From Nevskia sp. (GTDB lineage Bacteria; Pseudomonadota; Gammaproteobacteria; Nevskiales; Nevskiaceae): DNA of 35,759 nt. The notes under the pieces were generated by a model that made no database searches, was not told where the DNA came from, and worked only from the letters and a program-made list of their open reading frames with translations. The first letter of the stretch is position 1. The number at the start of each line of letters is the position of its first letter. Of the stretch, positions 14,887 to 32,215 are shown in pieces. A program made the position numbers and the translations under genes. The stretch is taken from NCBI GenBank assembly GCA_016779605.1, contig JADHNH010000028.1, positions 1 through 35,759 of the forward strand, given 5' to 3'.

Positions 14887-15507
14887 TCAGGCTGCCGGTG
14901 TCGCCGGCGTGGGCGGCAGGACGGCGGCCGCAGTGCGGGCGCCGCGCACCGGCGCCGAGACGCCCAGCGAAATGATGTAGCGCATGCCTTCCTCCACGCT
15001 CAGGTCCAGCGGCACCACCTCGTCGCGCGGCACCTGCATGAGAAACCCGGAGGTCGGGTTCGGCGTGGTCGGCACGAACACCGCGGTCATTTCGCGGCCG
15101 CTGCGCTCGGCGGCCTCGCGCAGCGCCTCGCCGGCCTGGAAGCCCACCGACCACTGCCCCGGCCGCGGCCACTCGATCATCACGACCTTGCGGAACGAGT
15201 TGGAATTCTCCGAAAACAGCGTTTCCGCCAGCTTCTTGGTGCCGCCGTACAGCGAGCGCACCAGCGGGATATGGTTGAACAGGCTTTCGAGCCAGTTGAG
15301 GAATTGCGCGCCCAGGTAATTCGCCGCCAGCGCGCCGGTGCCGAGCACCACCACCACCGTCAGCAGCACGCCCAGGCCGGGGAAGCGCCAGGACGGCGGC
15401 AGCAGGTAGCTGCTGTCCAGCAGATCCAGGGTGAAGCGGATCACCAGCAGGGTGGCGCCGAGCGGAATCCATACCATCAGCCCGGCGAACACCCAGCGGC
15501 GGATCAT
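14887..15507 (-). CDS. DUF502 family membrane protein
   Basis: A 206-residue protein of the DUF502 family, function unknown. Two hydrophobic segments (about residues 8-28 and 46-70) are followed by the family stretches [17 protein letters not shown] and [18 protein letters not shown], then a soluble domain and an Ala/Pro-rich tail. It overlaps the FmdB-type gene upstream by four bases and precedes aspS on the same strand, a neighbourhood commonly seen in proteobacteria. This suggests co-translation, not a specific role. Confidence 0.88.
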
Positions 15508-15866
15508 GCCGGAACCGTGGGCGCCGGCTTGTCAGTGGAAGCGGCGGGAGCGGCTGCCGGCGCCGCCTTGGGCGCGTGGCTGCAACCGGCGGCGCAGGTG
15601 TGGCCGGCACCCTTGGCGTCCGCGCCCTCGCTCTTGGCGCTTTCGGCCGGAGCCCCGGCATCGCCGGTCAGGTTGCGCTTGTCGCCGCCCTTGAAATCGG
15701 TTTCGTACCAGCCGCCGCCCTTGAGCCGGAAGCCCGCCGCCGACACCTGCTTGGTCAGGGCGTGCGCATGGCATTCGGGGCACTCGGTTTCCGGCGGATC
15801 GGACAGTCTCTGCAGGACTTCGGTCGCGGCGCCACAGCTGGTGCAGACGTATTCGTAAAACGGCAT
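15504..15866 (-). CDS. FmdB-type zinc ribbon protein
   Basis: A 120-residue small protein of the FmdB/putative regulatory zinc ribbon family. The N-terminus MPFYEYVCTSCG and the later CPECHA give a C-x2-C...C-x2-C zinc site. The tail is Ala-rich and contains the extra CAAGC. The ATG at 15866 has GGAGG eight bases upstream, so the longer reading frame above it is not used. It is the first gene of the FmdB-DUF502-aspS group. Function is unknown beyond probable nucleic-acid or protein binding. Confidence 0.9.
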   Translation of the reverse strand: MPFYEYVCTSCGAATEVLQRLSDPPETECPECHAHALTKQVSAAGFRLKGGGWYETDFKGGDKRNLTGDAGAPAESAKSEGADAKGAGHTCAAGCSHAPKAAPAAAPAASTDKPAPTVPA

Positions 15867-16062: not shown

Positions 16063-16515
16063 ATGAACATCAATCGCTATGAACCGCGGAGCCTGATCGG
16101 CCAGCTGCAGAACGACATCAACCGCATGTTCTCGAACTTCGGCTGGGCGCCTGGCGACGGCGACATCGTCGGCAGCAACTGGGCCCCCGCCGTGGACATC
16201 AAGGAAGACGACAAGCAGTTCTGCATCCGCGCCGACCTGCCCGGCGTGGAACCCAAGGACATCGAGGTGACGATGGACCACGGCGCGCTCACCATCCGCG
16301 GCAAGCGCGCGTCGGAAAAGAAGGAGGAAAAGGACGGCTGGCTGCGCACCGAGCGCTTCAGCGGCGAGTTCTACCGCCGGCTGATGCTGCCCGACACCGC
16401 CGACGCCGAGCACGTCGACGCGTCCACCGAAAAAGGCGTGCTGGAAATCACCATTCCCAAGCGGCCTGCGGCCCAGGCCAAGCGGGTCGAAGTCAAGACG
16501 CAAGCCAAGACCTGA
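16063..16515 (+). CDS. Small heat-shock protein, Hsp20/alpha-crystallin family
   Basis: A 150-residue holdase chaperone. The alpha-crystallin domain spans about residues 38-135, with WAPAVDIKEDDKQF, ADLPGVEPKDIEVTM, GALTIRGKR, ERFSGEFYRRLMLP and the C-terminal ITIPK strand that includes the I-x-I anchoring motif. AGGAG lies seven bases before the ATG. It stands alone, with an FNR-like dyad upstream; hsp20 genes under oxygen-responsive control beside CBS-domain genes are a recurring theme in bacteria, which fits the island at 22-29 kb. It ends just before a MITE-like palindrome. Confidence 0.95.
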   Translation: MNINRYEPRSLIGQLQNDINRMFSNFGWAPGDGDIVGSNWAPAVDIKEDDKQFCIRADLPGVEPKDIEVTMDHGALTIRGKRASEKKEEKDGWLRTERFSGEFYRRLMLPDTADAEHVDASTEKGVLEITIPKRPAAQAKRVEVKTQAKT

Positions 16516-22334: not shown

Positions 22335-22348
22335 ATGACTTGGGTCAA
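22335..22348 (+). promoter_or_regulatory. FNR-like dyad upstream of CBS gene 1
   Basis: ATGAC-TTGG-GTCAA contains the perfect dyad TGAC-N4-GTCA with the FNR core TGA-N6-TCA. It shares the string GGTCAATGA (ending two bases beyond the box) with GGTCAATGA of the hsp20 site. It lies 111 bp before the CBS start codon. There is no convincing -10 at the class II distance, so confidence is limited. Confidence 0.4.
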
Positions 22349-22458
22349 TGACCGCGCGGCTCCGGCCCGGGGACACTAGCGCGGAATCGAACGGTCATAC
22401 CCGACGTAAAACCCGCTCAGCGGCGCACGCCGAGGCACCGCACCAGGAGAAAAGCATC

Positions 22459-22908
22459 ATGAAGACAGGCGACTGCTGCAACCGCGTGGTGCTGGTCACC
22501 AAAGCCGACACCGGCATCCGCGAAACTGCCGAGCTGCTGCGCAAGAGCCACTGCGGCAGCGTCGTGGTGGTACGCGACGACGGCACCGGCGCGCATCCCG
22601 TCGGCATCATCACCGATCGCGACCTGGTCGTCGAGGTGCTGGCCTGCGGCATCGCCCCCGAGCAGGTCAGCGCCGGCGATGTCATGTCCGGCGACCTGGT
22701 CCTGGTCGGCGAAGACGAGGAAGTGGTCGAAGCCGCCGCCAGGATGCGCAAGGCCGGCGTGCGGCGGGCACCGGTGGTCGACGGTCAGGGGCGCCTGGTC
22801 GGCATCGTCACGCTCGACGACCTGCTGGATTTCACCGCCAAGCTGCTTGGCGTGATGGCGAGCATGGTGCGCCGCGAGATCGCCACGGAAGCCGCGCACC
22901 GGACTTAA
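22459..22908 (+). CDS. CBS-domain pair protein 1
   Basis: A 149-residue protein consisting of two CBS motifs (about residues 8-65 and 72-128), which usually bind adenine nucleotides and report energy state. Typical endings are VGIITDRDLVVEVLA and LVGIVTLDDLLDFTAKL. The N-terminus carries adjacent cysteines (GDCCNRVVLV) and another at HCGS, a feature it partly shares with CBS protein 2. AGGAG lies nine bases before the ATG. It is monocistronic, convergent with glk, with an FNR-like dyad upstream. Target protein unknown. Confidence 0.9.
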   Translation: MKTGDCCNRVVLVTKADTGIRETAELLRKSHCGSVVVVRDDGTGAHPVGIITDRDLVVEVLACGIAPEQVSAGDVMSGDLVLVGEDEEVVEAAARMRKAGVRRAPVVDGQGRLVGIVTLDDLLDFTAKLLGVMASMVRREIATEAAHRT

Positions 22909-22937
22909 GAGGCGGCCACCCGGCCCCCCAGCCGGCC

Positions 22938-23879
22938 TCAGCGCTGCAGGCGCAGCGCCGCCTCGGCCAGCATGGCCATGCCCAGCAGCCCGGGGAATGG
23001 ATGCGTCACGATGAAAACCGGGACCTGCGCCAGCCACTGCGCGAACGGCTGGTGGTCCTCGAATGCCGCGCGGAACGCCGCGCGGTCGAAATTCGGCCCC
23101 CAGCCGGGCACGATGCCGCCGGCGATGTAGACGCCGCCGGCCGCCCCCAGGGTGAGCGCAAGGCTGCCGCAGAAATGGCCGAGCCAGCGCGTGAACAGGC
23201 GCACCGCATGCCGTGCCTCCAGGTCGCCGTCCCAGGCGGCCTGCGCGATCTGCGCCGCCTGCCGCGGCGATCCCGGCACGCGCAGCCGGTACAGCCGCTC
23301 CAGCCCGGGCCCGGACAACACGGTCTCGGCCGATACGCGCCCCTGCTGCGCAAACAGTGCGGCCCAGGCCTGCCCTTCGTCGGCGTCGGCCGGGGCGAGG
23401 CTGGCGTGGCCACCCTCCCCCGGCAGCACCTCGGCACGCGCCGGGCCGGCGACGCTGGCCACGCCCAGGCCGGTGCCGGCGCCCACCACCAGGCACGGCG
23501 CGCCGGCTTGCGGCGCTCCGCCGCCGCAGCAACTCAGGTCGCCGGCGCCGAGGCCGCGCAGTCCGTGCGCCACCGCGGCGAAGTCGTTGGCGACGATCGC
23601 CGGGCCGCCGCCGATCGCCGACGCAAGCCGCGCCGGGTCGACCACGCAGTCGGTGTTGGTCAGGTGGATCGCGCCGTCCTGCCGCAGGGGGCCGGCGGCG
23701 CACAGGCCCGCCGCCGCCACCGCCGGGCCGCCCGCCTGCGCCAGGTACGCGGCGACCAGCGCACCGATGTCGGCCGGCGTCGGCTTGACCCGGGCTTGCA
23801 GGAATTCCCAGCCCTGGCCGTTGCGCCGGGCCAGCGCCAGGCGCGTATTGGTGCCGCCGACGTCGCCTACTAGGATCAT
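22938..23879 (-). CDS. glk: Glucokinase
   Basis: A 313-residue cytoplasmic ROK-unrelated (Glk-type) glucokinase making glucose 6-phosphate. Visible are the phosphate-binding start [17 protein letters not shown], the catalytic Asp in [23 protein letters not shown], and [12 protein letters not shown] (the Glu-Gly-Gly-His sugar-binding turn), then [15 protein letters not shown] near the C-terminus. The ATG at 23879 begins exactly at the family start; the long open frame above is not coding. It is divergent from glgC over 272 bp, so the sugar phosphate it makes can feed glycogen synthesis. Confidence 0.93.
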
Positions 23880-24151
23880 GCCTGCCTGTGTGTTCGCCGC
23901 GCCGGATGCCTGCCGCCCATGTTGCCGCAAAAGGCCGGCCGCCGCAGTGGGCACCGCGGCAGTGTTGGCACGCGCTTGGCTTGCGCAATCACGGAAATGC
24001 AACACTACAAGAACAACACGCGCTCCAAACGGAAGTCGTGCGAACGCCGGGGGCCGGACGCAGCGCGGCCACGGGCGCCGGAAAATTCCTTCGAATCGCG
24101 CCATGCGGCGGGTTACAGTATCCACGCGGACCGGAACCACGCAGAGAGGTC

Positions 24152-25423
24152 ATGCAAAACCTAGAACCAGAACGCCGGGTCAGCCGGCTCACGCGCCAGA
24201 CCCTCGCCATCGTGCTCGCCGGCGGGCGCGGCACCCGGCTGGGGCCGCTCACCGACTGGCGCGCCAAGCCGGCGGTGCCGTTCGGCGGCAAGTTCCGCAT
24301 CATCGACTTCACCCTGTCCAACTGCATCAATTCCGGCGTGCGCCGCGTGGCGGTGGCCACGCAGTACAAGTCCCACTCGCTGATCCGCCACATCCAGATG
24401 GGCTGGGGCTTCCTGCGCGGCGAGTTCAACGAATTCGTGGAGCTGCTGCCGGCGCAGCAGCGCATCAACGAATTCGCCTGGTACGCGGGCACCGCCGACG
24501 CCATCTACCAGAACATCGACATCATCCGCCACCACGCGCCGAACTACGTGCTGATCCTGGCCGGCGACCACATCTACAAGATGGACTACGGCCCCATGCT
24601 GGCCGCGCACGACCAGCGCGGCGCCGAGGTCACGGTCGGCTGCATCGAGGTGCCGATCGAGCGCGGCCGCAGCTTCGGCATCATGCAGGTCGACGAGCAG
24701 GAGCGCATCGTCAAGTTCGCCGAAAAGCCCTTGCAGCCGGAGCCCATTCCGGGCCGGCCCGGCCTGGCGCTGGCGTCGATGGGCATCTACGTGTTTTCGA
24801 CCGAGTACCTGCTGGAGGAGCTCAAGCGCGACGCCGCGCGCACCGACTCTTCGCACGACTTCGGCAAGGACATCATTCCCGGCTCGCTGGGCAAGGTGCC
24901 GGTGTTCGCCTACCCGTTCCGCGACGCGCAGAAAAATCAGCTCGGCTACTGGCGCGACGTCGGCACCGTCGACGCCTTCTGGGAAGCGAACATGGAGCTG
25001 CTGGCGATCACGCCCGAGCTGAACCTGTACGACCGCGACTGGCCGATCTGGACCTACCAGGAACAGGTGCCCGCGGCCAAATTCGTGTTCGACGAACCGG
25101 ACTGCCGCGGCGCGGCGATCAGCTCGCTGGTCTCAGGCGGCTGCATCGTGTCGGGCGCCCGGGTGTGGCGCAGCCTGCTGTTCACCAACGTGCACGTGGA
25201 GCGGCACGCGATGGTGGAGGAATCGGTGGTGCTGCCCGACGCGCGCATCGCCTCGGGCTGCCGCATCCGCCGCGCGGTGATCGACAAGGGCTGCGAACTG
25301 CCGCCGGACACCACGGTGGGCTTCGATCGCGAACAGGACGCCAAGCGGTTCCACGTGACGGACGGCGGGGTGACGCTGGTGACGCCGGAGATGCTGGGAC
25401 AGTCGCTGCATTCCGCGGTTTAG
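24152..25423 (+). CDS. glgC: Glucose-1-phosphate adenylyltransferase (ADP-glucose pyrophosphorylase)
   Basis: Makes ADP-glucose from ATP and glucose 1-phosphate, the committed step of bacterial glycogen synthesis. The 423-residue protein has the nucleotidyltransferase domain with [61 protein letters not shown] and [16 protein letters not shown]. The C-terminal left-handed beta-helix follows, with [14 protein letters not shown] and RAVIDKGC. The N-terminal ATG at 24152 has GAGAGG only two bases upstream, a short spacing. No glgA, glgB or glgP lies in the window. Confidence 0.96.
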
Positions 25424-25430
25424 CGGGCTC

Positions 25431-25459
25431 CGCCGCCGCCCGCGTCGCGGGCGGCGGCG
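25431..25459. terminator. Strong hairpin between convergent glgC and CBS gene 2
   Basis: A perfect 13-bp GC-only stem (25431-25443 and 25447-25459) with the three-base loop GTC sits in the 43-bp convergent gap. It has no T tract on either side, so it is a bidirectional hairpin that may block transcription or protect 3' ends, not a classical intrinsic terminator. Confidence 0.5.
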
Positions 25460-25466
25460 TGCCCGA

Positions 25467-25982
25467 TCAGGCGGCGCGACGCCAGTCGGCAACGCCGGCG
25501 TCGGAGCTTGCAGCGGCCGGCTGCGGCAGGGTTCCGGGGATGTAGGCGCGATCCACCGGTGCCTGCCCGCACAGCAGCCGCATGGTGCTGAACTGCGTCT
25601 GCGCCAGCACCTGCAGGACATCGTCGATGGTCAGCACGCCCTGCAGCGCGCCGACGCTGTCGACGACCGGCAGGCGGCGCAGGCCCAGCGCCTGCATGCG
25701 CTCGAGGGTTTCCCACAAGCCGTCGTTGGCGTGCGCCGTCGTGCCGCACTCCGGCAACAGCTCGCCGACGGTGGCCTGCTCCAGCGCGGGGGCCGCCGCC
25801 ATGACTTGCCGCACCAGGTCGCGCTCGGTGACCAGGCCGAGCGGGCGCCGCAGGCCCTTGACCTGCTCGACCACGGCCAGCACGCCGACATCATGCTTGC
25901 GCATCAGCCGCGCGGCATCCCGCGCGCTGGTTTCCGGAGCGCACACCACCACCATCCTGTTGCTGCACTCGCACACTCTCAT
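25467..25982 (-). CDS. CBS-domain pair protein 2
   Basis: A 171-residue paralogue of the CBS protein at 22.5 kb. Two CBS motifs (about residues 8-65 and 75-128) end in LGLVTERDLVRQVMA and LQGVLTIDDVLQVLAQT. The N-terminus MRVCECSNRMVVV again places cysteines just before an Asn-Arg pair, as in protein 1. A ~40-residue tail without recognised features follows. The start at 25982 has AGGA nine bases upstream. It follows the receiver gene by 116 bp on the same strand and could be read through from it. An adenylate-sensing role is inferred from the family. Confidence 0.88.
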   Translation of the reverse strand: MRVCECSNRMVVVCAPETSARDAARLMRKHDVGVLAVVEQVKGLRRPLGLVTERDLVRQVMAAAPALEQATVGELLPECGTTAHANDGLWETLERMQALGLRRLPVVDSVGALQGVLTIDDVLQVLAQTQFSTMRLLCGQAPVDRAYIPGTLPQPAAASSDAGVADWRRAA

Positions 25983-26098
25983 GCTTGGGCGTCCTTGAAG
26001 TTTTGCAGCGGCCTCGCCGGCCGTTCGCGTAACGTTTCGCAAGAAGCTTGCCCGCAAAAACCCTGCCGGCCGCCGGAACCGGCCGAGAGCCCGGGCCA

Positions 26099-26470
26099 TC
26101 AGCCCTGGAGCGCCTCTTCCACGGACTGCTTGAGCTCCTCGTCGAAAAACGGCTTGGCCAGCAGGGCATGCGCACCGGCCGCGCGGGCGCGCGCCGCCAG
26201 CGGCGAATCTTTCTGGCCGGTGATCACCACCACCGGGATGCGGATGCCGCGCGAAGCCAGCACCAGTTGCAGCTCGACGCCGTTCATCTCCGGCATGTTG
26301 AGGTCGAGCAGCAGGCAGTCGGGCATGCCTTGCGGCAGCGCCTCGAGGAATTCCTGCGCCGAGCCGAAGGCACGGGCATTCCAGCCGAACGAACGGGCCA
26401 GGAGCCGCGTCGCGCTGCGCACGGCTTCGTCGTCGTCGACGATGAACACCAAGGGCGGATTCTCACTCAT
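26099..26470 (-). CDS. Receiver-only response regulator (FixJ-like receiver)
   Basis: A 123-residue stand-alone receiver domain. It has the acidic pocket (DDD at residues 12-14), the phospho-acceptor Asp56 in LLLDLNMPEMNG, Thr84 in VVITG and Lys106 in AKPF. The sequence is FixJ/NarL-like (VFIVDDDEAVRSATRLLARSFG), but the frame stops right after the last receiver helix: no LuxR-type DNA-binding domain follows. GAGGAG lies 11 bases before the ATG at 26470, with a closer AGAG. It sits 168 bp downstream of the FixL-like kinase, its likely partner, with its own FNR-like box between them. It may act by protein contact or as a phosphate sink. Confidence 0.92.
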   Translation of the reverse strand: MSENPPLVFIVDDDEAVRSATRLLARSFGWNARAFGSAQEFLEALPQGMPDCLLLDLNMPEMNGVELQLVLASRGIRIPVVVITGQKDSPLAARARAAGAHALLAKPFFDEELKQSVEEALQG

Positions 26471-26549
26471 CAAAAGCTCTGCTCCTCTGCCGCTCGTGCG
26501 GCAATGGCCTTGGCACCGCAGCTGCCGGCGATTGCCTCCAAACTCGTTC

Positions 26550-26591
26550 ATTGTTGTCTTTTCCGGCCGATCCAGCATTGATCTGGATCAT
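26550..26591 (-). promoter_or_regulatory. FNR-like class II promoter of the receiver gene
   Basis: The box TTGAT-CTGG-ATCAT (26578-26591) matches the FNR consensus at nine of ten positions. On the minus strand AACAAT (26555-26550) is a four-of-six -10 hexamer. If it is used, transcription starts at 26543 and the box is centred exactly 41.5 bases upstream, the classical class II FNR activation spacing. The start codon is at 26470. Confidence 0.6.
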
Positions 26592-26638
26592 CCGCGACAA
26601 GTTTCTGTATTTTATAAAACTCTTTCGTTATCTTATGG

Positions 26639-28132
26639 TTACGTTTTCTTGCCAGGGACACTCCCAGGCGCTGCGGCGGCATCCGGCAGAGGCAGCCAGA
26701 AATGGAAGACGGCGCCGCCGGGCTGGCCGTTTTCGGCCCAGATGCGGCCGTCGTGCGCCTCGACGATACGCCGGCAGATCGCCAGCCCCTGGCCAAGCCC
26801 GTCCGCCTTGGTGGTGAAGAAGGGGTCGAACAGGCGCTCCGGCTTGTTCTGCCCGAATCCCGGTCCGCTGTCGTGCACGCTGACCCTGACGCCGGGCGCG
26901 TCCTGCTGGTCCGGGATCAGCTGCAGGCGCAGCTCGCGGCTTGCGGACGGCCCCGACACCATCGCTTCCACCGCGTTGCGCACCAGGTTGACCAGCACCT
27001 GTTCGATCTGCACGCGGTCGATGTGCACTTCCGGGATCGAGGGGCGCGCATCGAGGTAGACCCGCACCTGGTTGACGGTCAGCTCGTGATCCAGCAGGCC
27101 CAAAGCCTCGGACAGGCTGGCCACGAGGTCGCAGGGTTGTTTCTCGACCTCGCCCTTTTCGATGAACTTGCGCAGGCGGCGGATCACTTCGACGGCGCGC
27201 TCGCCCTGGCGCGCGATCTGCTCCATGGAGCCGTGCAGCAGCTCCTGGTCGGCGGTGCCCGCGCCGATCATGCGCAGGCAGGCGCGCGCGTAGTTGATGA
27301 TGGCGGTGAGCGGCTGGTTGATTTCGTGGGCCAGGCCCGAGGCCAGCTCGCCCATCGAGTGGATGCGTGTCACGTGGGCCAGCTCGTCCATGCGGCGCCG
27401 CGCCTCGCGCTCGGCGTCCTTGCGGTCGGTGATGTCGCGGACGATGCCGGTGAACAGGCGCTGCCCGCCGCTCACCACCTCCCCCACCGCCAGGTCCAGC
27501 GGGAAGCGCGTGCCGTCCTTGCGCAGGCCCTCGACCTCGCGGCCGATGCCGATGATCTTCTTGCGCCCGGTGCGGCGGTAGTTGTCGAGGTAGCCGTCGT
27601 GGCTCTCGCGGTACGGCGCCGGCATCAGCATCGACACGTTGCGCCCGATGACCTCCGCGGCGCGGTAGCCGAAGATGCGCTCGGCGGCGCGGTTGAACGA
27701 CGCCACTGCGCCGCGCTCGTTGATGGTGATGATGCCGTCCACCGCGGTGTCCAGGATGGCATGGTAGCGGCCCATCGACTCGGCCAGCTCGGCCTCGATA
27801 CGCCGGGCGGCGAGCACGTCGACACCCGCCACCACCACGCCGGTGACCTTGCCGCCGGCATCGCGGATTCCGGAATAGCTCCAGCGCACGGCCAGGCGCG
27901 AGCCATCCTTGCACAGCCAGTCGCCCTCGTCGTCCTCGGCCGGCTCGCCGGCGGCGGCACGCAGGAACGCCTCGCGCATCCGCGCCGCACCCTCGGGCGC
28001 GGGCAGCACGCTCCAGATCGCGCGCTGCACGACCTGCGCAGGCGCATGGCCGGTGATCTCCTCGCAATGGTGGTTGAGGAGCTGGATCGCACCCTGCGCA
28101 TCGGCGATGGCCACCATCGTTCTTCCGGGCAT
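26639..28132 (-). CDS. fixL: FixL-like PAS-PAS histidine kinase, probable haem oxygen sensor
   Basis: A 497-residue soluble kinase, almost the length of rhizobial FixL (~505). It has PAS 1 (about residues 5-110) and PAS 2 (about 123-235). The latter carries the FixL haem-pocket pattern MPAPYRESHDGYL (His178, aligned with the haem-ligand His200 of Bradyrhizobium FixL) and IIGIGREVEG (Arg198, aligned with Arg220, which contacts bound oxygen). The kinase core has the H-box LAHEINQPLTAI (His269), N-box NLVRNAVEAM, DSGPGFG and TTKADGLGQGLAICRRI. No membrane helices are seen. AGGGA precedes the ATG. Haem binding is inferred; the gene name is by similarity. Confidence 0.88.
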   Translation of the reverse strand: MPGRTMVAIADAQGAIQLLNHHCEEITGHAPAQVVQRAIWSVLPAPEGAARMREAFLRAAAGEPAEDDEGDWLCKDGSRLAVRWSYSGIRDAGGKVTGVVVAGVDVLAARRIEAELAESMGRYHAILDTAVDGIITINERGAVASFNRAAERIFGYRAAEVIGRNVSMLMPAPYRESHDGYLDNYRRTGRKKIIGIGREVEGLRKDGTRFPLDLAVGEVVSGGQRLFTGIVRDITDRKDAEREARRRMDELAHVTRIHSMGELASGLAHEINQPLTAIINYARACLRMIGAGTADQELLHGSMEQIARQGERAVEVIRRLRKFIEKGEVEKQPCDLVASLSEALGLLDHELTVNQVRVYLDARPSIPEVHIDRVQIEQVLVNLVRNAVEAMVSGPSASRELRLQLIPDQQDAPGVRVSVHDSGPGFGQNKPERLFDPFFTTKADGLGQGLAICRRIVEAHDGRIWAENGQPGGAVFHFWLPLPDAAAAPGSVPGKKT

Positions 28133-28271
28133 GGACGGTCCCTGGCAGGTGCATTTGTGTACGGCCCGCGGGCGGCCGCCTGAAGTTCGAACCAGGCGGA
28201 CCCCGCGCCATCCATTATTGGCGCTTCACCGAAGGGCGTCCAGAGACGGCCCGCTAGCCGGTACGCCGGGC

Positions 28272-28305
28272 AAAAAAAAGCGGGGCGGCCTGGCAGCCGT
28301 CCCGC
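28272..28305 (-). terminator. Intrinsic terminator of the fnr-like gene
   Basis: Read on the minus strand, GCGGGACGGC (28305-28296), a six-base loop and GCCGCCCCGC (28289-28280) form a 10-bp stem with one A-C mismatch, followed at once by eight Ts (28279-28272). This is a textbook rho-independent terminator, 59 bases after the fnr-like stop, separating that gene from fixL. Confidence 0.92.
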
Positions 28306-28363
28306 GCAAGCGCCGCAATGGGCGCAGAGGAGATCCGGGTCGGGGAGATTCGTGTGGGGGGCT

Positions 28364-29116
28364 TCAGGCGGCCAGCGCCATCGACACGCCGGGTCGGCGG
28401 CAGATGCCCACCGCCTCGCCCACTTCGTACAGCTTGTGACGGGCCAGCAGGCGGATGCATTTTTCCTCGCAGCGCAGCCAGCCCTTGCGCTCGAACGTCT
28501 TCAGCGTGCGGCACACCGTCTCGGTGGCCAGGCGCAGGTAGCTGCCGATATCGCGCCGGGTCATCGGCAGGCGCAGCACGCCGCCCGTCGAGTCCATGCG
28601 CTCCTCCATGTGCAGCAGGAAGGCCGCCATGCGCTGCTCGGCGGTGAAGTCGCCAGAGATCGCCAGGGCCAGGGCCAGCTCGCGGCTGGCCGCCTCGGTC
28701 AGGTGCTGCGCCACTGCCGGATCGCGCTGCAGCAGGCCGCGGAAATCCGTCACCGCGGCGGCGCAGACCTGCGAGGGCGTCACCGCCGCGGCCGACGAGC
28801 GCGTGCGCGCCGCGCCGAGGCCGTCGAGGCCGACGACGTCGCCGGGCAGGTGGAAGCCGCGGATATGCTCGTTGCCCTGGCTGTCCACGGTGTAGGTCTT
28901 GATGCAGCCGGCGCGCACCGTGTACAGCGCGCGCAGGGCCTGGCCGGCTTCGTAAAGCGCGGCACGTCCGGGCAGCGCCGCGGTCGGCGCGCCGACGATG
29001 GCGCCGAACGTGGGGGCACTTGCCGTGCCCCGGCCCATGCAGTCCTGCACCGGGCAGAACGCGCAGTTGCTCTTGAGATGTGACTCAACGGCTTGGGGGG
29101 CTGCATCGAATGCCAT
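28364..29116 (-). CDS. fnr: Crp/Fnr-family regulator, FNR type with Fe-S cysteines
   Basis: A 250-residue regulator, the same length as E. coli FNR. The N-terminal cysteines C18-x2-C21-x4-C26 (SNCAFCPVQDC) plus Cys118 (SQVCAAA) fit the four ligands of an oxygen-labile [4Fe-4S] cluster. A cyclic-nucleotide-fold domain (about 45-135), dimer helix (about 138-172) and winged helix follow. The recognition helix reads ATETVCRTL: Glu199 and Arg203 match FNR, but the intervening FNR serine is Cys202. The ATG at 29116 has GGAGAG five bases upstream, which rules out longer starts. It is divergent from kpsS and ends at an intrinsic terminator. It probably acts on the FNR-like boxes in this window. Confidence 0.9.
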   Translation of the reverse strand: MAFDAAPQAVESHLKSNCAFCPVQDCMGRGTASAPTFGAIVGAPTAALPGRAALYEAGQALRALYTVRAGCIKTYTVDSQGNEHIRGFHLPGDVVGLDGLGAARTRSSAAAVTPSQVCAAAVTDFRGLLQRDPAVAQHLTEAASRELALALAISGDFTAEQRMAAFLLHMEERMDSTGGVLRLPMTRRDIGSYLRLATETVCRTLKTFERKGWLRCEEKCIRLLARHKLYEVGEAVGICRRPGVSMALAA

Positions 29117-29310: not shown

Positions 29311-30615
29311 GTGTACGCACTGCAAAGCCCAACGCTGCCGCTGCCCGCGGTGCCCGCCGAGGCGGACGCCGCCGCGCCGGCCGGCCGGCGCGACTACCTG
29401 TTCCTGCAAGGTCCGATCGGGCCGTTCTTCGGCCTGCTGGGCCGCCGCCTGCGGCGGGCCGGCCAGGGCGTGCACCGGATCAACTTCAACGGCGGCGACC
29501 GCCTGTTCTGGCGCCTGCCGGGCGCGGTGGACTTTCGCGCCGGCGCCGCGCAGTGGCCCGGCTTTATCGCCGCACGGCTCGACGCCTGGCGCATCACCGA
29601 CCTGGTGCTGTTCGGCGACTGCCGCCCGCTGCACCGCCAGGCGGCCGCGCTGGCGCGCCAGCGCGGCATCGCCGTGCACGTGTTCGAGGAAGGCTACCTG
29701 CGGCCCAACTGGGTGACCCTGGAGAGCGGCGGCGTCAACGGCCACTCCGCGCTGCCGCGCGACCCCGGCTGGTTCCTCGCCGCGGCGGCAGCGGCGCCGC
29801 CCTGGGACGAGGGCGCGCCGGTGGGCGGCAGCTTCCTGCGGCGGGCGGCGGCCGACGTGCTCTACAACCTCGCCACCGTGCTGGCCACGCCGGCCTACCC
29901 TGCCTACCGCACGCACAAGCCCTGGCATCCGCTGGCCGAGTACGCCGCCGGCGCCCGGCGCTTTCCCATCCGTCCCTGGGTGCGGCGGCGGGTGCGCGGC
30001 GCCGTGCGGCAGATCCTCGCGCAGGAGCGGCCGCGCTACCTGTTCCCGCTGCAGCTCGACGCCGACGCGCAGATCCGCCACCACTCGCCGTTCGGCCGCA
30101 TGGCGCCGGCGATCGAGGCGGTGATCACTTCGTTCGCGCGCCGCGCGCCGGCCGATGCGCTGCTGATCGTCACCGAGCACCCTCTGGACGCCGGCGTGGT
30201 GGATCTGCTGCGCATCGCGCGCGAACGCGCCGCCGCCGCCGGCGTGGCGCAGCGCGTGATCTGCCTGCCGGCGGGCAGCCCGATGGAACTGCTGCCCGGC
30301 AGCCGCGGCATGGTCACGGTCAACAGCACCATGGGCATCGTTGCGCTGCAGCTGGGCCTGCCGGTGACCGTGCTGGGCCGGGCGGTTTACGACCTGCGCG
30401 GCCTGACCTTCCAGGGCGGGCTGGACGACTTCTGGACCCAGGCCGGGCCGCCGCAGCGGGCGCTGTTCGACGCCTTCCGCCGCGTGGTGGCGCAGCGCAC
30501 GCAGATCAACGGCGGCTTCCACAGCGCCGCCGGCCTCGCCCTGGCGGTGCACGGCGCCGCCGCGCGGCTGGCGCCGTCGGCTGCCGCCGCCGGCCGCGCG
30601 GCGGCGCGCACCTGA
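29311..30615 (+). CDS. kpsS: KpsS-like capsular polysaccharide (Kdo) transferase
   Basis: A 434-residue capsule-synthesis protein of the KpsS/KpsC group. In group 2 capsule systems these enzymes build the beta-Kdo linker on lyso-phosphatidylglycerol at the inner membrane. Typical motifs are LQGPIGPFFGLLGRRL, VHRINFNGGDRLFWRLPG, VFEEGYLRPNWVTLE followed by GVNGHSALPRD, TEHPLDAGVVDLL, TVNSTMGIVALQLGLPV, and GRAVYDLRGLTFQGGLDDFW. The start is a GTG with AAGGAAGG five bases upstream. No KpsC, KpsF/U or ABC exporter gene is in the window, so the enzyme is either an orphan or belongs to a capsule locus elsewhere. It is paired with the sulfatase-fold gene 16 bases downstream. Confidence 0.87.
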   Translation: MYALQSPTLPLPAVPAEADAAAPAGRRDYLFLQGPIGPFFGLLGRRLRRAGQGVHRINFNGGDRLFWRLPGAVDFRAGAAQWPGFIAARLDAWRITDLVLFGDCRPLHRQAAALARQRGIAVHVFEEGYLRPNWVTLESGGVNGHSALPRDPGWFLAAAAAAPPWDEGAPVGGSFLRRAAADVLYNLATVLATPAYPAYRTHKPWHPLAEYAAGARRFPIRPWVRRRVRGAVRQILAQERPRYLFPLQLDADAQIRHHSPFGRMAPAIEAVITSFARRAPADALLIVTEHPLDAGVVDLLRIARERAAAAGVAQRVICLPAGSPMELLPGSRGMVTVNSTMGIVALQLGLPVTVLGRAVYDLRGLTFQGGLDDFWTQAGPPQRALFDAFRRVVAQRTQINGGFHSAAGLALAVHGAAARLAPSAAAAGRAAART

Positions 30616-30631
30616 GGCGCCGGCGCACGCG

Positions 30632-32215
30632 GTGGGCCTCGTCGCGCAAGGCGGCATCGACCTGTTCGCCGTCGGCGGCGGCGCGCTGCTGGCGGCCTGC
30701 GGCTGGCTGTGGCTGCGCCACGCCGGCAGCACGCGCCTGCGGCCGTGCTGGGCGCTGCTGCTGGACCTGTTCCTGCCCGCCGGCGGCTTCGCGCTGCTGG
30801 CCGCCGCCACCGCGCGGCCGCTGTTCGCCGGCGCCGCCACTGCGGCCCTGGCCGCTGGCCTGGCCTACGCGGACCGCGCCAAGCTGAAAGTCCTGGCCGA
30901 GCCGGTGGTGTTCACCGACGTGTTTCAGGCATTCGACATCTTGCGCCATCCGCGCCTGGCCCTGCCGTTCCCGCGCCAGGGCCGCCTGCTCTGCGCCGTG
31001 GCCGCCGCGCTCGGTGCCTTCGCCGTGCTGTTCGCCGCCGAGCCGCCGGCATGGCGCTGGAACCCGTGGCCGCCGCTGGCCGCCGCGGCACTGGACGGCG
31101 CAGTGATCCTGGCCCTGGGCGGCGGACTGCGCAGCCGCATCGCGCGCCATCTCCTGCGCGGCGGGCTGCGCGGCGATCCGGCCACGGACGTGCCGCGCTT
31201 CGGCCCGCTGGCGGTGCTGCTGGGCTACGGCATCGTCGCCGGACACCAGCGGGCCGGCCGCCAGTCGGCCGCGCCGCCGCCGGCGCCCGCGGTGCCGCTC
31301 AGGCGCCCCGCCCCGGCGCCGCTGGTGCTGGTGCAATGCGAATCGTTCTTCGACGCGCGGCGCCTGCATCCGGCCATCGCGCCCGGCCTGCTGCCGGCGT
31401 ACGACCGCTGCCGCGGCGGCAGCGTGCAATGGGGCCGGCTCGAAGTGCCGAGCTGGGGGGCGAACACGGTGCGCACCGAGTTCGCCGTGCTCTCCGGCCT
31501 CGCCGGCGAGCGCCTCGGCTTCGACCGCTTCAACCCCTACCACCGCTTCGCCGGCGTGCCGGTCGCCACCCTGGCCTGGCAACTGCGCGCGGAGGGCTAC
31601 CGCACGATCTGCCTGCATCCCTTCGACCGCCGCTTCTACGGGCGCGACCGCGTGATGCCCAAGCTCGGTTTCGACCGCTTCATCGGCCTCGAGGGGTTCG
31701 CCGGCGCGCAACGGGTCAACGGCTATGTCGCCGATGTCGAAGTGGCGCGCAAGGCCGCCCAAATCGTCGCCGCCGAAGGACCGGCGGTGTTCGTCTTCGC
31801 CATCACCATGGAAAACCACGGACCGTGGCACGCCGCGGAACAAACGCCGCAGGCCGGCCCGCCCCGGGGGCTGACGCTGCCGCCAGGCCAGGCGCGGCTG
31901 CTGCAGCCTTACCTGCGCAGCCTGCGCAACGCCGACGCGATGCTGCAAATCCTGGCCGAGGCGCTCGCCGGCGGCGGCAGGCCCGGCATGCTGGCCTTCT
32001 ACGGCGATCATCTGCCCGCCTTCGGCGCCGCGTTCGCCGAACTTGGCCTGCGCGACCTGCGCACCGACTACTTCATCTGGAGCGCCGCGCGCGGCGGCGC
32101 CCGCCGCCGCGACCTTGCCGCGCACGAGCTGCGCGGCGCCATCCTGGAAGCGCGTGCGCAACTGGCGCTGCGGGCGTCGCCGGCGGGCTGGGAGAAGGTC
32201 CTGCAGGCGGGCTAG
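30632..32215 (+). CDS. LtaS/OpgB-like membrane phosphoglycerol transferase (sulfatase fold)
   Basis: A 527-residue protein. About five hydrophobic segments (within residues 8-205) precede a sulfatase-fold domain (about 230-490). The residues aligned with LtaS catalysis are present: metal-binding Glu237 in VLVQCESFF, the threonine nucleophile Thr279 in SWGANTVRTEF, and Asp459-His460 in FYGDHLP. The VFAITMENHGPW motif is also typical. It would transfer a phosphoglycerol or similar polar head group to a glycan outside the inner membrane. The start is a GTG without a clear ribosome site, 16 bases after kpsS, consistent with coupling. Decoration of the capsule made with KpsS is the natural reading; glucan (OpgB-like) modification is the alternative. 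Confidence 0.85.
   Translation: MGLVAQGGIDLFAVGGGALLAACGWLWLRHAGSTRLRPCWALLLDLFLPAGGFALLAAATARPLFAGAATAALAAGLAYADRAKLKVLAEPVVFTDVFQAFDILRHPRLALPFPRQGRLLCAVAAALGAFAVLFAAEPPAWRWNPWPPLAAAALDGAVILALGGGLRSRIARHLLRGGLRGDPATDVPRFGPLAVLLGYGIVAGHQRAGRQSAAPPPAPAVPLRRPAPAPLVLVQCESFFDARRLHPAIAPGLLPAYDRCRGGSVQWGRLEVPSWGANTVRTEFAVLSGLAGERLGFDRFNPYHRFAGVPVATLAWQLRAEGYRTICLHPFDRRFYGRDRVMPKLGFDRFIGLEGFAGAQRVNGYVADVEVARKAAQIVAAEGPAVFVFAITMENHGPWHAAEQTPQAGPPRGLTLPPGQARLLQPYLRSLRNADAMLQILAEALAGGGRPGMLAFYGDHLPAFGAAFAELGLRDLRTDYFIWSAARGGARRRDLAAHELRGAILEARAQLALRASPAGWEKVLQAG

Follow-up and report, generated by a model that had tools for sequence, protein, structure and literature searches.

A FixL-type haem kinase beside a stand-alone receiver with a predicted FNR box in Nevskia sp.

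Genes and predicted FNR boxes of the window

A stretch of 35,759 nucleotides from Nevskia sp. (contig JADHNH010000028.1, C27 of the 188 contigs of a 4.08 Mb genome), called the window throughout the paper, was analyzed. It carries genes for a FixL-type haem PAS histidine kinase, a stand-alone receiver, an FNR-type regulator, two stand-alone CBS domain pairs (CBS1, CBS2) and the small heat-shock protein Hsp20. Domain searches found all genes which an earlier sequence-only reading of the window had named in place (Table 1). The parts are of known kinds (FixL, FNR, a single-domain receiver, and genes for universal stress proteins (USPs), CBS proteins and Hsp20). What appears to be new, as far as the sequences tell, is a putatively phosphorylatable receiver which is preceded by an FNR-type box, occupies in relatives the position of FixT of Sinorhizobium meliloti and persists where the DNA-binding regulator FixJ is absent.

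Table 1. Features of the window discussed in the text.
Feature	Position	Strand	Evidence or location
Divergent gene opposite hsp20	15504-15866		
FNR box TTGATTCAGGTCAA, perfect TTGAYNNNNRTCAA	15970..15983	+	93 bp upstream of hsp20 start
hsp20, small heat-shock protein	16063..16515	+	PF00011 8.6e-26
FNR box ATGACTTGGGTCAA, one mismatch	22335..22348	+	124 bp upstream of CBS1 start
CBS1, stand-alone CBS domain pair	22459..22908	+	PF00571 1.1e-25, two stretches
Glucokinase, neighbour without FNR box	22938..23879	-	PF02685 6.4e-75
glgC, glucose-1-phosphate adenylyltransferase, neighbour without FNR box	24152..25423	+	TIGR02091 above cut-off
CBS2, stand-alone CBS domain pair, without own box	25467..25982	-	PF00571 8.1e-20
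Stand-alone receiver (REC only), 123 aa	26099..26470	-	PF00072 8.3e-25, sole domain
FNR box TTGATCTGGATCAT, one mismatch	26578..26591	-	between fixL and receiver
FixL-type haem PAS histidine kinase	26639..28132	-	PAS, haem-type PAS, HisKA, HATPase
Stem then eight U, 3' of fnr	28258..28306	-	-24.6 kcal/mol, z -1.83
FNR-type regulator	28364..29116	-	PF13545, PF00325, PF00027

FNR boxes were searched with the pattern TTGAYNNNNRTCAA (TTGAY-N4-RTCAA). Allowing up to one mismatch, 4 matches were found in the window compared to a mean of 0.59 and a maximum of 3 in 100 first-order Markov sequences, which is more than chance. Three of them fall into the 3,278 bases (9%) which no predicted gene covers, the fourth into aspS. 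The three are positioned 93-124 bp ahead of the start codons of hsp20, CBS1 and the receiver gene. The sequence-only reading had placed FNR-like dyads at three promoters including that of hsp20 and had counted the receiver itself among the controlled genes; the boxes were confirmed, and the receiver is a predicted FNR target. The hsp20 box lies also 117 bp upstream of the divergent gene. At about class-II spacing, -10-like hexamers matching 4 of 6 positions were seen for hsp20 (CATGAT, 25 nt beyond the box) and for the receiver (AACAAT, 22 nt beyond the box), while CBS1 reached only 3 of 6; a match of 4 of 6 at that spacing occurred at 118 of 5,000 random positions. No box with up to one mismatch was detected within 300 bp upstream of the genes for CBS2, FixL, FNR, glucokinase and GlgC.

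The dyad scan of the whole genome, proposed as a check by the earlier reading, yielded 77 perfect boxes compared to 6 for the reversed control pattern, and 311 compared to 96 with one mismatch. The regulon is consequently not the small one that had been assumed, and because of this excess of perfect boxes the window is an outlying piece of a large, probably low-oxygen FNR regulon. Perfect boxes were located on at least 21 contigs (50 of the 77 boxes, up to contig C106) and were dense on C4 and C13. In the contig stretches taken, the genes near perfect boxes include those for USPs, phosphoenolpyruvate (PEP) synthase, transaldolase, phosphoketolase, PPK2, HemA, a Lon-like protease, a globin of bacterial type, another CBS protein and a NiFe hydrogenase cluster. 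A predicted gene start was found at most 450 bp away for 24 of 30 perfect boxes checked. One of the three hsp20 genes of the genome has a box; a second sits at a contig end, with its upstream region not visible. In two relatives (G036, G070) hsp20 adjoins fixL-fixJ with a box upstream, and a more distant hsp20 gene in G065 had no box nearby. On contig C4 (1-56000; L192-L194) eleven perfect boxes were counted in about 38 kb, surrounding the NiFe hydrogenase cluster, PPK2, a glycogen-phosphorylase-like gene and genes for several small unknown proteins.

The kinase, the receiver and the FNR-type regulator

The second PAS domain (PAS 2) of the kinase aligned free of gaps with FixL of S. meliloti (1d06, 130.7 bits) and of Bradyrhizobium japonicum (1dp6, 119.2 bits). 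His178 and Arg198, the haem-pocket residues already pointed out from the sequence, are in register with both haem pockets; we take them to be the haem (proximal) histidine and the oxygen-side arginine of the FixL PAS domain. PAS 2 is closely related to these haem domains of solved structure and is predicted to bind haem. Of 28 aligned FixL-like kinases, 23 have both residues, and the remaining 5 lack such a PAS domain or are cut. The protein further contains a HisKA domain (PF00512) with the phosphoacceptor His269 and a HATPase domain (PF02518). With 378.5 bits it missed the cut-off of 850 bits for the rhizobial FixL equivalog in NCBIfam and is, judged by this score, a homologue and not the rhizobial equivalog. 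Among the best 80 of 179 named loci, all of them distant, the best match by E-value showed 47% identity over residues 110-484; the gene caller used on these 80 loci was trained on G+C-rich genes, so that low-G+C genes were missed and blanks are uninformative.

The description of the neighbouring protein as a receiver-only regulator held true. Its phosphorylation pocket is complete (D12, D13, D56, T84, K106), and D/E-D-D-T/S-K is found in 11 of 11 stand-alone receivers, with Glu replacing the first Asp in 4. A tree separated 13 stand-alone receivers (9 from FixL loci, 2 further paralogues, 2 from other kinase loci) from 22 FixJ proteins with a support of 99/100 and a long-branch warning at two rows and at the joint. 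On the basis of this split a truncated FixJ was rejected as an explanation of the receiver. After addition of named sequences, the 11 stand-alone receivers alone formed a clade with a support of 95/91, in a tree from which S. meliloti FixT was left out as a long branch and in which the sphingomonad receivers are long branches. Constraining the Azospirillum receivers together with the 11 was not rejected (p-AU 0.29), a common clade not being established by this. In all nine FixL-receiver loci a box with up to one mismatch precedes the predicted receiver start by 56-138 bp. Including the two further stand-alone paralogues, 10 of 11 receivers have a box, among them the paralogue on contig C45 of the window genome. 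Outside the window, a box was found ahead of 9 of 10 receivers compared to 28 of 135 other predicted genes (Fisher p 1.7e-5).

The FNR-type regulator possesses Crp-type helix-turn-helix and cyclic nucleotide (cNMP)-like domains and nine cysteines. Four of these are conserved (C18-x2-C21-x4-C26 and C118), in agreement with the four cysteines noticed before: C18 and C21 are present in 30, C26 and C118 in 29 of 31 aligned FNR homologues. Deviations were seen in a CRP-like protein of the same genome (C40), in a G065 relative with 32% identity and, at position 18, in the protein of G081. The spacing is one residue shorter than C-x2-C-x5-C, which we assume for FNR of Escherichia coli. The cut-off of the NCBIfam Fnr subfamily (PRK11161) was missed with 119.1 compared to 228 bits. 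Two further FNR paralogues are encoded elsewhere in the genome, and several FNR homologues adjoin cbb3-oxidase-like genes recognized by eye. The recognition helix reads ETVCR, with Cys in that column in 21 of the 31 homologues and presumably Ser in E. coli FNR; this cysteine may provide a redox-sensitive residue at the DNA contact.

CBS1 and CBS2, earlier regarded as paralogues, share 36% identity across 128 amino acids. CBS2 was rejected as an FNR target in its own right because of the missing upstream box. It may share the transcript of the receiver as part of an operon, despite a weak terminator-like stem at 26086-26066 between the two genes. The stem 3' of fnr is a possible terminator parting fnr from fixL; 10 of 200 shuffles folded equally well, and the consensus terminator scan did not report it. 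Overall, terminator-like stems were no commoner than chance (4 found, shuffle mean 3.3). The glycogen genes, for which the regulon had been termed one of energy storage, were rejected as members, since glgC and the glucokinase gene have no box and look like plain neighbours. Divergent from fnr, a KpsS-like capsule-polysaccharide protein and a sulfatase-family protein are encoded at 29311-32215, with no FNR box between.

FixL loci of related genomes and the role of the receiver

Window-type FixL (E 1e-100) was searched in 85 genomes of the order. It was found at 11 loci in 9 genomes, and the surroundings of all 11 were inspected. In a class-wide search at E 1e-115, with genomes drawn evenly, a strict threshold and at most 4 candidates scored per listed genome, the genome of the window was the only one of 369 with a hit. 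Five of the 11 loci, belonging to other genera (G081, G035:C101, G031, G020, G024), show the order FixL-FixJ-[box]-receiver-FNR. Four loci show FixL-[box]-receiver without FixJ, and all belong to the window's genus (one in the window itself, one in G004, two in G009); fnr follows directly after the receiver in G004 and lies upstream of fixL in the window. The earlier statement that FixL has no local DNA-binding FixJ therefore holds for the window and for all four loci of this type in the genus. Of the neighbourhood, whose comparison in relatives had also been proposed as a check, FixL, box and receiver are kept in these four loci, with the module present in only 3 of 18 genomes of the genus. 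A wiring different from the rhizobial cascade applies locally, for lack of FixJ, and not to the five loci of other genera, which keep the S. meliloti order fixL-fixJ-fixT-fixK.

Three full-length FixJ-like proteins are encoded elsewhere in the genome, on contigs C35, C51 and C182, scoring 225-236 bits, under the family cut-off of 255 bits. Each of their genes adjoins its own kinase gene, and the haem His and Arg are found in the C35 kinase only. In the C35 set, FixL-FixJ-FNR is preceded by a perfect box, and a gene of the histone-deacetylase family is divergent from it; the set recurs with this gene in G004 (fnr apart), G036, G025, G080 and G070. The window FixL is of a different type from the C35 FixL; the helix after the phosphoacceptor His was not clearly distinct by eye between the two. 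In 4 of 5 relatives an FNR box lies between the divergent gene and FixL-FixJ-FNR, and on C35 (L135, 3-6585) a large acyl-CoA synthetase/acetyltransferase-like gene, named by eye, stands alongside the histone-deacetylase-family gene. A tie between hypoxia and protein acetylation is possibly hinted at by this set. A further haem-type FixL-like kinase, 48% identical and with His and Arg kept, is encoded at a contig edge (L137, contig C169, 3-1646), its partner not being visible.

FixLJ and FNR are two textbook oxygen switches, the coupling of which varies between bacteria. We tentatively propose that FNR induces the receiver as part of a hypoxia regulon and that the receiver, a counterpart of FixT in position and retained in the absence of FixJ, accepts phosphate from FixL, and are aware that this proposal is still somewhat more apt to be wrong than right. 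When oxygen falls, FNR, which senses it by an iron-sulphur cluster and could in vivo be any one of the paralogues, would bind the boxes and turn on hsp20, CBS1, the receiver gene and perhaps CBS2. Under low oxygen the FixL haem would lose its oxygen, and the active kinase would phosphorylate the receiver, a phosphotransfer which is the simplest expectation because the receiver pocket is intact. The receiver would exert negative feedback as FixT does, yet by draining phosphate from FixL and not by inhibiting the kinase. In the family's other genera the receiver would be a competitor of FixJ and would thereby damp it. In the window's genus, with FixJ absent from the module, it would be the sole local partner of FixL, either as the remaining sink or, to be taken equally seriously, as a new output.

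As an output, the receiver would be phosphorylated by FixL and bind a putative protein target; in this genus FixL would signal without a transcription factor of its own, gated by FNR, which makes the receiver. The intact pocket fits this role, as does the absence of FixJ from all four window-type loci of the genus, in which FixL, box and receiver were kept. MrrA is reportedly a single-domain response regulator which acts by protein contact. Such regulators are known (PMC7078487). Other genera have the receiver alongside FixJ, however, where damping is simpler, which leaves the output role unlikely. Quite unlikely is a function as FixT proper, i.e., binding to FixL and blocking its autophosphorylation while staying unphosphorylated, although the receivers of five relatives sit at the fixT position of S. 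meliloti pSymA (fixL-(fixJ)-fixT-fixK) and control by an FNR-type box is predicted. The pocket of S. meliloti FixT reads A-A-D-D-K, the acidic pair and Thr being lost, compared to D-D-D-T-K in the window receiver and the pocket kept in all 11 receivers here. This degenerate pocket is in line with FixT being reported as not phosphorylated and as inhibiting FixL directly (PMC7078487). Caulobacter FixT is described as carrying a 4-Cys Fe-S motif (PMC7078487), which is absent from the window receiver with its one Cys.

Signalling of FixL to one of the FixJ-like regulators on C35, C51 or C182, the adjoining receiver being incidental, would make use of three full-length proteins present in the genome, and the helix after the phosphoacceptor His, not clearly distinct by eye from that of the C35 kinase, counts in its favour. 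Each of their genes is placed beside its own kinase gene, and the adjacency of FixL and receiver with the box between them recurs in all 4 loci of the genus, so that we judge this very improbable. Hardly credible, finally, is the compact island of the sequence-only reading, with haem and iron-sulphur sensors converging on a small stress and energy-storage regulon including the glycogen genes. The boxes at hsp20, CBS1 and the receiver agree with it, but the regulon is genome-wide, glgC and the glucokinase gene have no box, and nothing shows FixL signalling into FNR targets.

Several observations weigh against the receiver as an FNR-induced phosphate acceptor. Where FixJ is absent, a simple sink has hardly any competitor, so that an output role accounts better for the persistence of the receiver there, and the FixJ-like proteins could in trans be the true partner of FixL. 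The FixT precedent means that position alone could mislead, as it would have predicted a FixT-type inhibitor. Window-type FixL is rare even in the genus (3 of 18 genomes). In G061 FixL stands apart from FixJ-FNR, with no receiver seen in the stretch taken, and G035:C116 has an orphan window-type FixL (L272, 8840-13789), neither a receiver nor FixJ being encoded in the 18 kb inspected. The receiver paralogue on C116 of G009 has no box, none of four inspected sphingomonad receiver genes (two near-identical) has such a box, the neighbourhoods are box-rich in general (the 28 of 135 other genes mentioned above), and 6 of the 30 perfect boxes checked had no predicted gene start within 450 bp. The proposal also supposes that FixJ was lost in the window's genus and not gained elsewhere. 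As a separate observation, the G035:C116 FixL is followed by a one-mismatch FNR box and phosphoketolase-like and acetate-kinase-like genes named by eye.

In a wider and doubtful version of the phosphate-acceptor proposal, the FixL of the genus would have lost its transcription factor and would signal only into the FNR-made receiver, with two chemically different oxygen sensors in series at one protein; a receiver at the fixT position working by phosphotransfer would be an old, undescribed part of the FixL modules of the family and perhaps of those of Azospirillum. A receiver made by FNR and probably phosphorylated by FixL would be a direct joint between both switches, and the fixT slot could host a working phosphate acceptor instead of a degenerate inhibitor. 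No description of an FNR-controlled receiver beside a FixJ-less FixL was found in the titles and abstract starts of the papers listed from an open-licence library, which is no proof of absence.

Comparison with known systems

On pSymA of S. meliloti the order fixL, gap, fixT, helix-turn-helix gene was found. The translation of the gap is FixJ-like, in two frames and unannotated, and the helix-turn-helix gene presumably sits at the place of fixK. Before fixT only a two-mismatch box-like site was seen. With the FixL-FixJ-FixT-FixK system of S. meliloti and Caulobacter the window has the haem PAS kinase and the predicted control of the receiver by an FNR-type box in common, and its receiver is, like FixT, a single-domain protein. 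As in S. meliloti, the relatives' receiver is encoded between FixJ and an FNR/FixK-type regulator (5 of 5 FixJ-bearing receiver loci), whereas the window has no FixJ, and its fnr is placed upstream of fixL. Further differences are the missing FixJ in the modules of the window's genus, the complete receiver pocket, the FNR-type cysteines in the downstream regulators of the relatives, and the other boxes of the window genome, which are found at stress and persistence genes.

Plasmids of Azospirillum and sphingomonads encode a two-PAS FixL with 40-43% identity over nearly the full length, and after it FixJ and a receiver of one domain; unlike the window, these modules have FixJ. The Azospirillum plasmids share the order FixL-FixJ-[box]-receiver. 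In 4 of 4 intact cases, representing two sequence types, a box with one mismatch precedes the receiver by 114-129 bp. On the plasmid of A. lipoferum 4B (L277, 6358-6540), a fifth case, only a short C-terminal piece of the receiver is annotated, so that it is maybe broken, with the box kept. One sphingomonad receiver has a degenerate pocket. The plasmids with the sphingomonad FixL-FixJ-receiver modules (L275, L276, L279) are of conjugative type, and the modules, accompanied there by genes for Hsp20, USPs, truncated haemoglobin or MgtC, are perhaps portable low-oxygen stress islands.

The low-oxygen-activated (lxa) locus of Burkholderia is presumably one contiguous block of low-oxygen genes; the boxes here are spread over many contigs, as described above. 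For Burkholderia, a FixLJ system, an Anr-type box with two Anr paralogues and an lxa locus with six USPs and a heat-shock protein are described (PMC9104464, PMC6127331, PMC5234846). The Anr-type box, the paralogous FNR/Anr proteins, the FixLJ system and the low-oxygen USP and heat-shock genes resemble the situation in the window genome. Unlike in Burkholderia, the window FixL has no FixJ and the receiver is preceded by an FNR box. In Rhizobium leguminosarum a FixL-type sensor operates without FixJ beside an FNR-type sensor (hFixL-FxkR-FixK with FnrN; PMC7888657). A partner of the kind used there was neither sought nor noticed here, and the window resembles that system in its FixJ-less FixL-type sensor alongside an FNR-type sensor.

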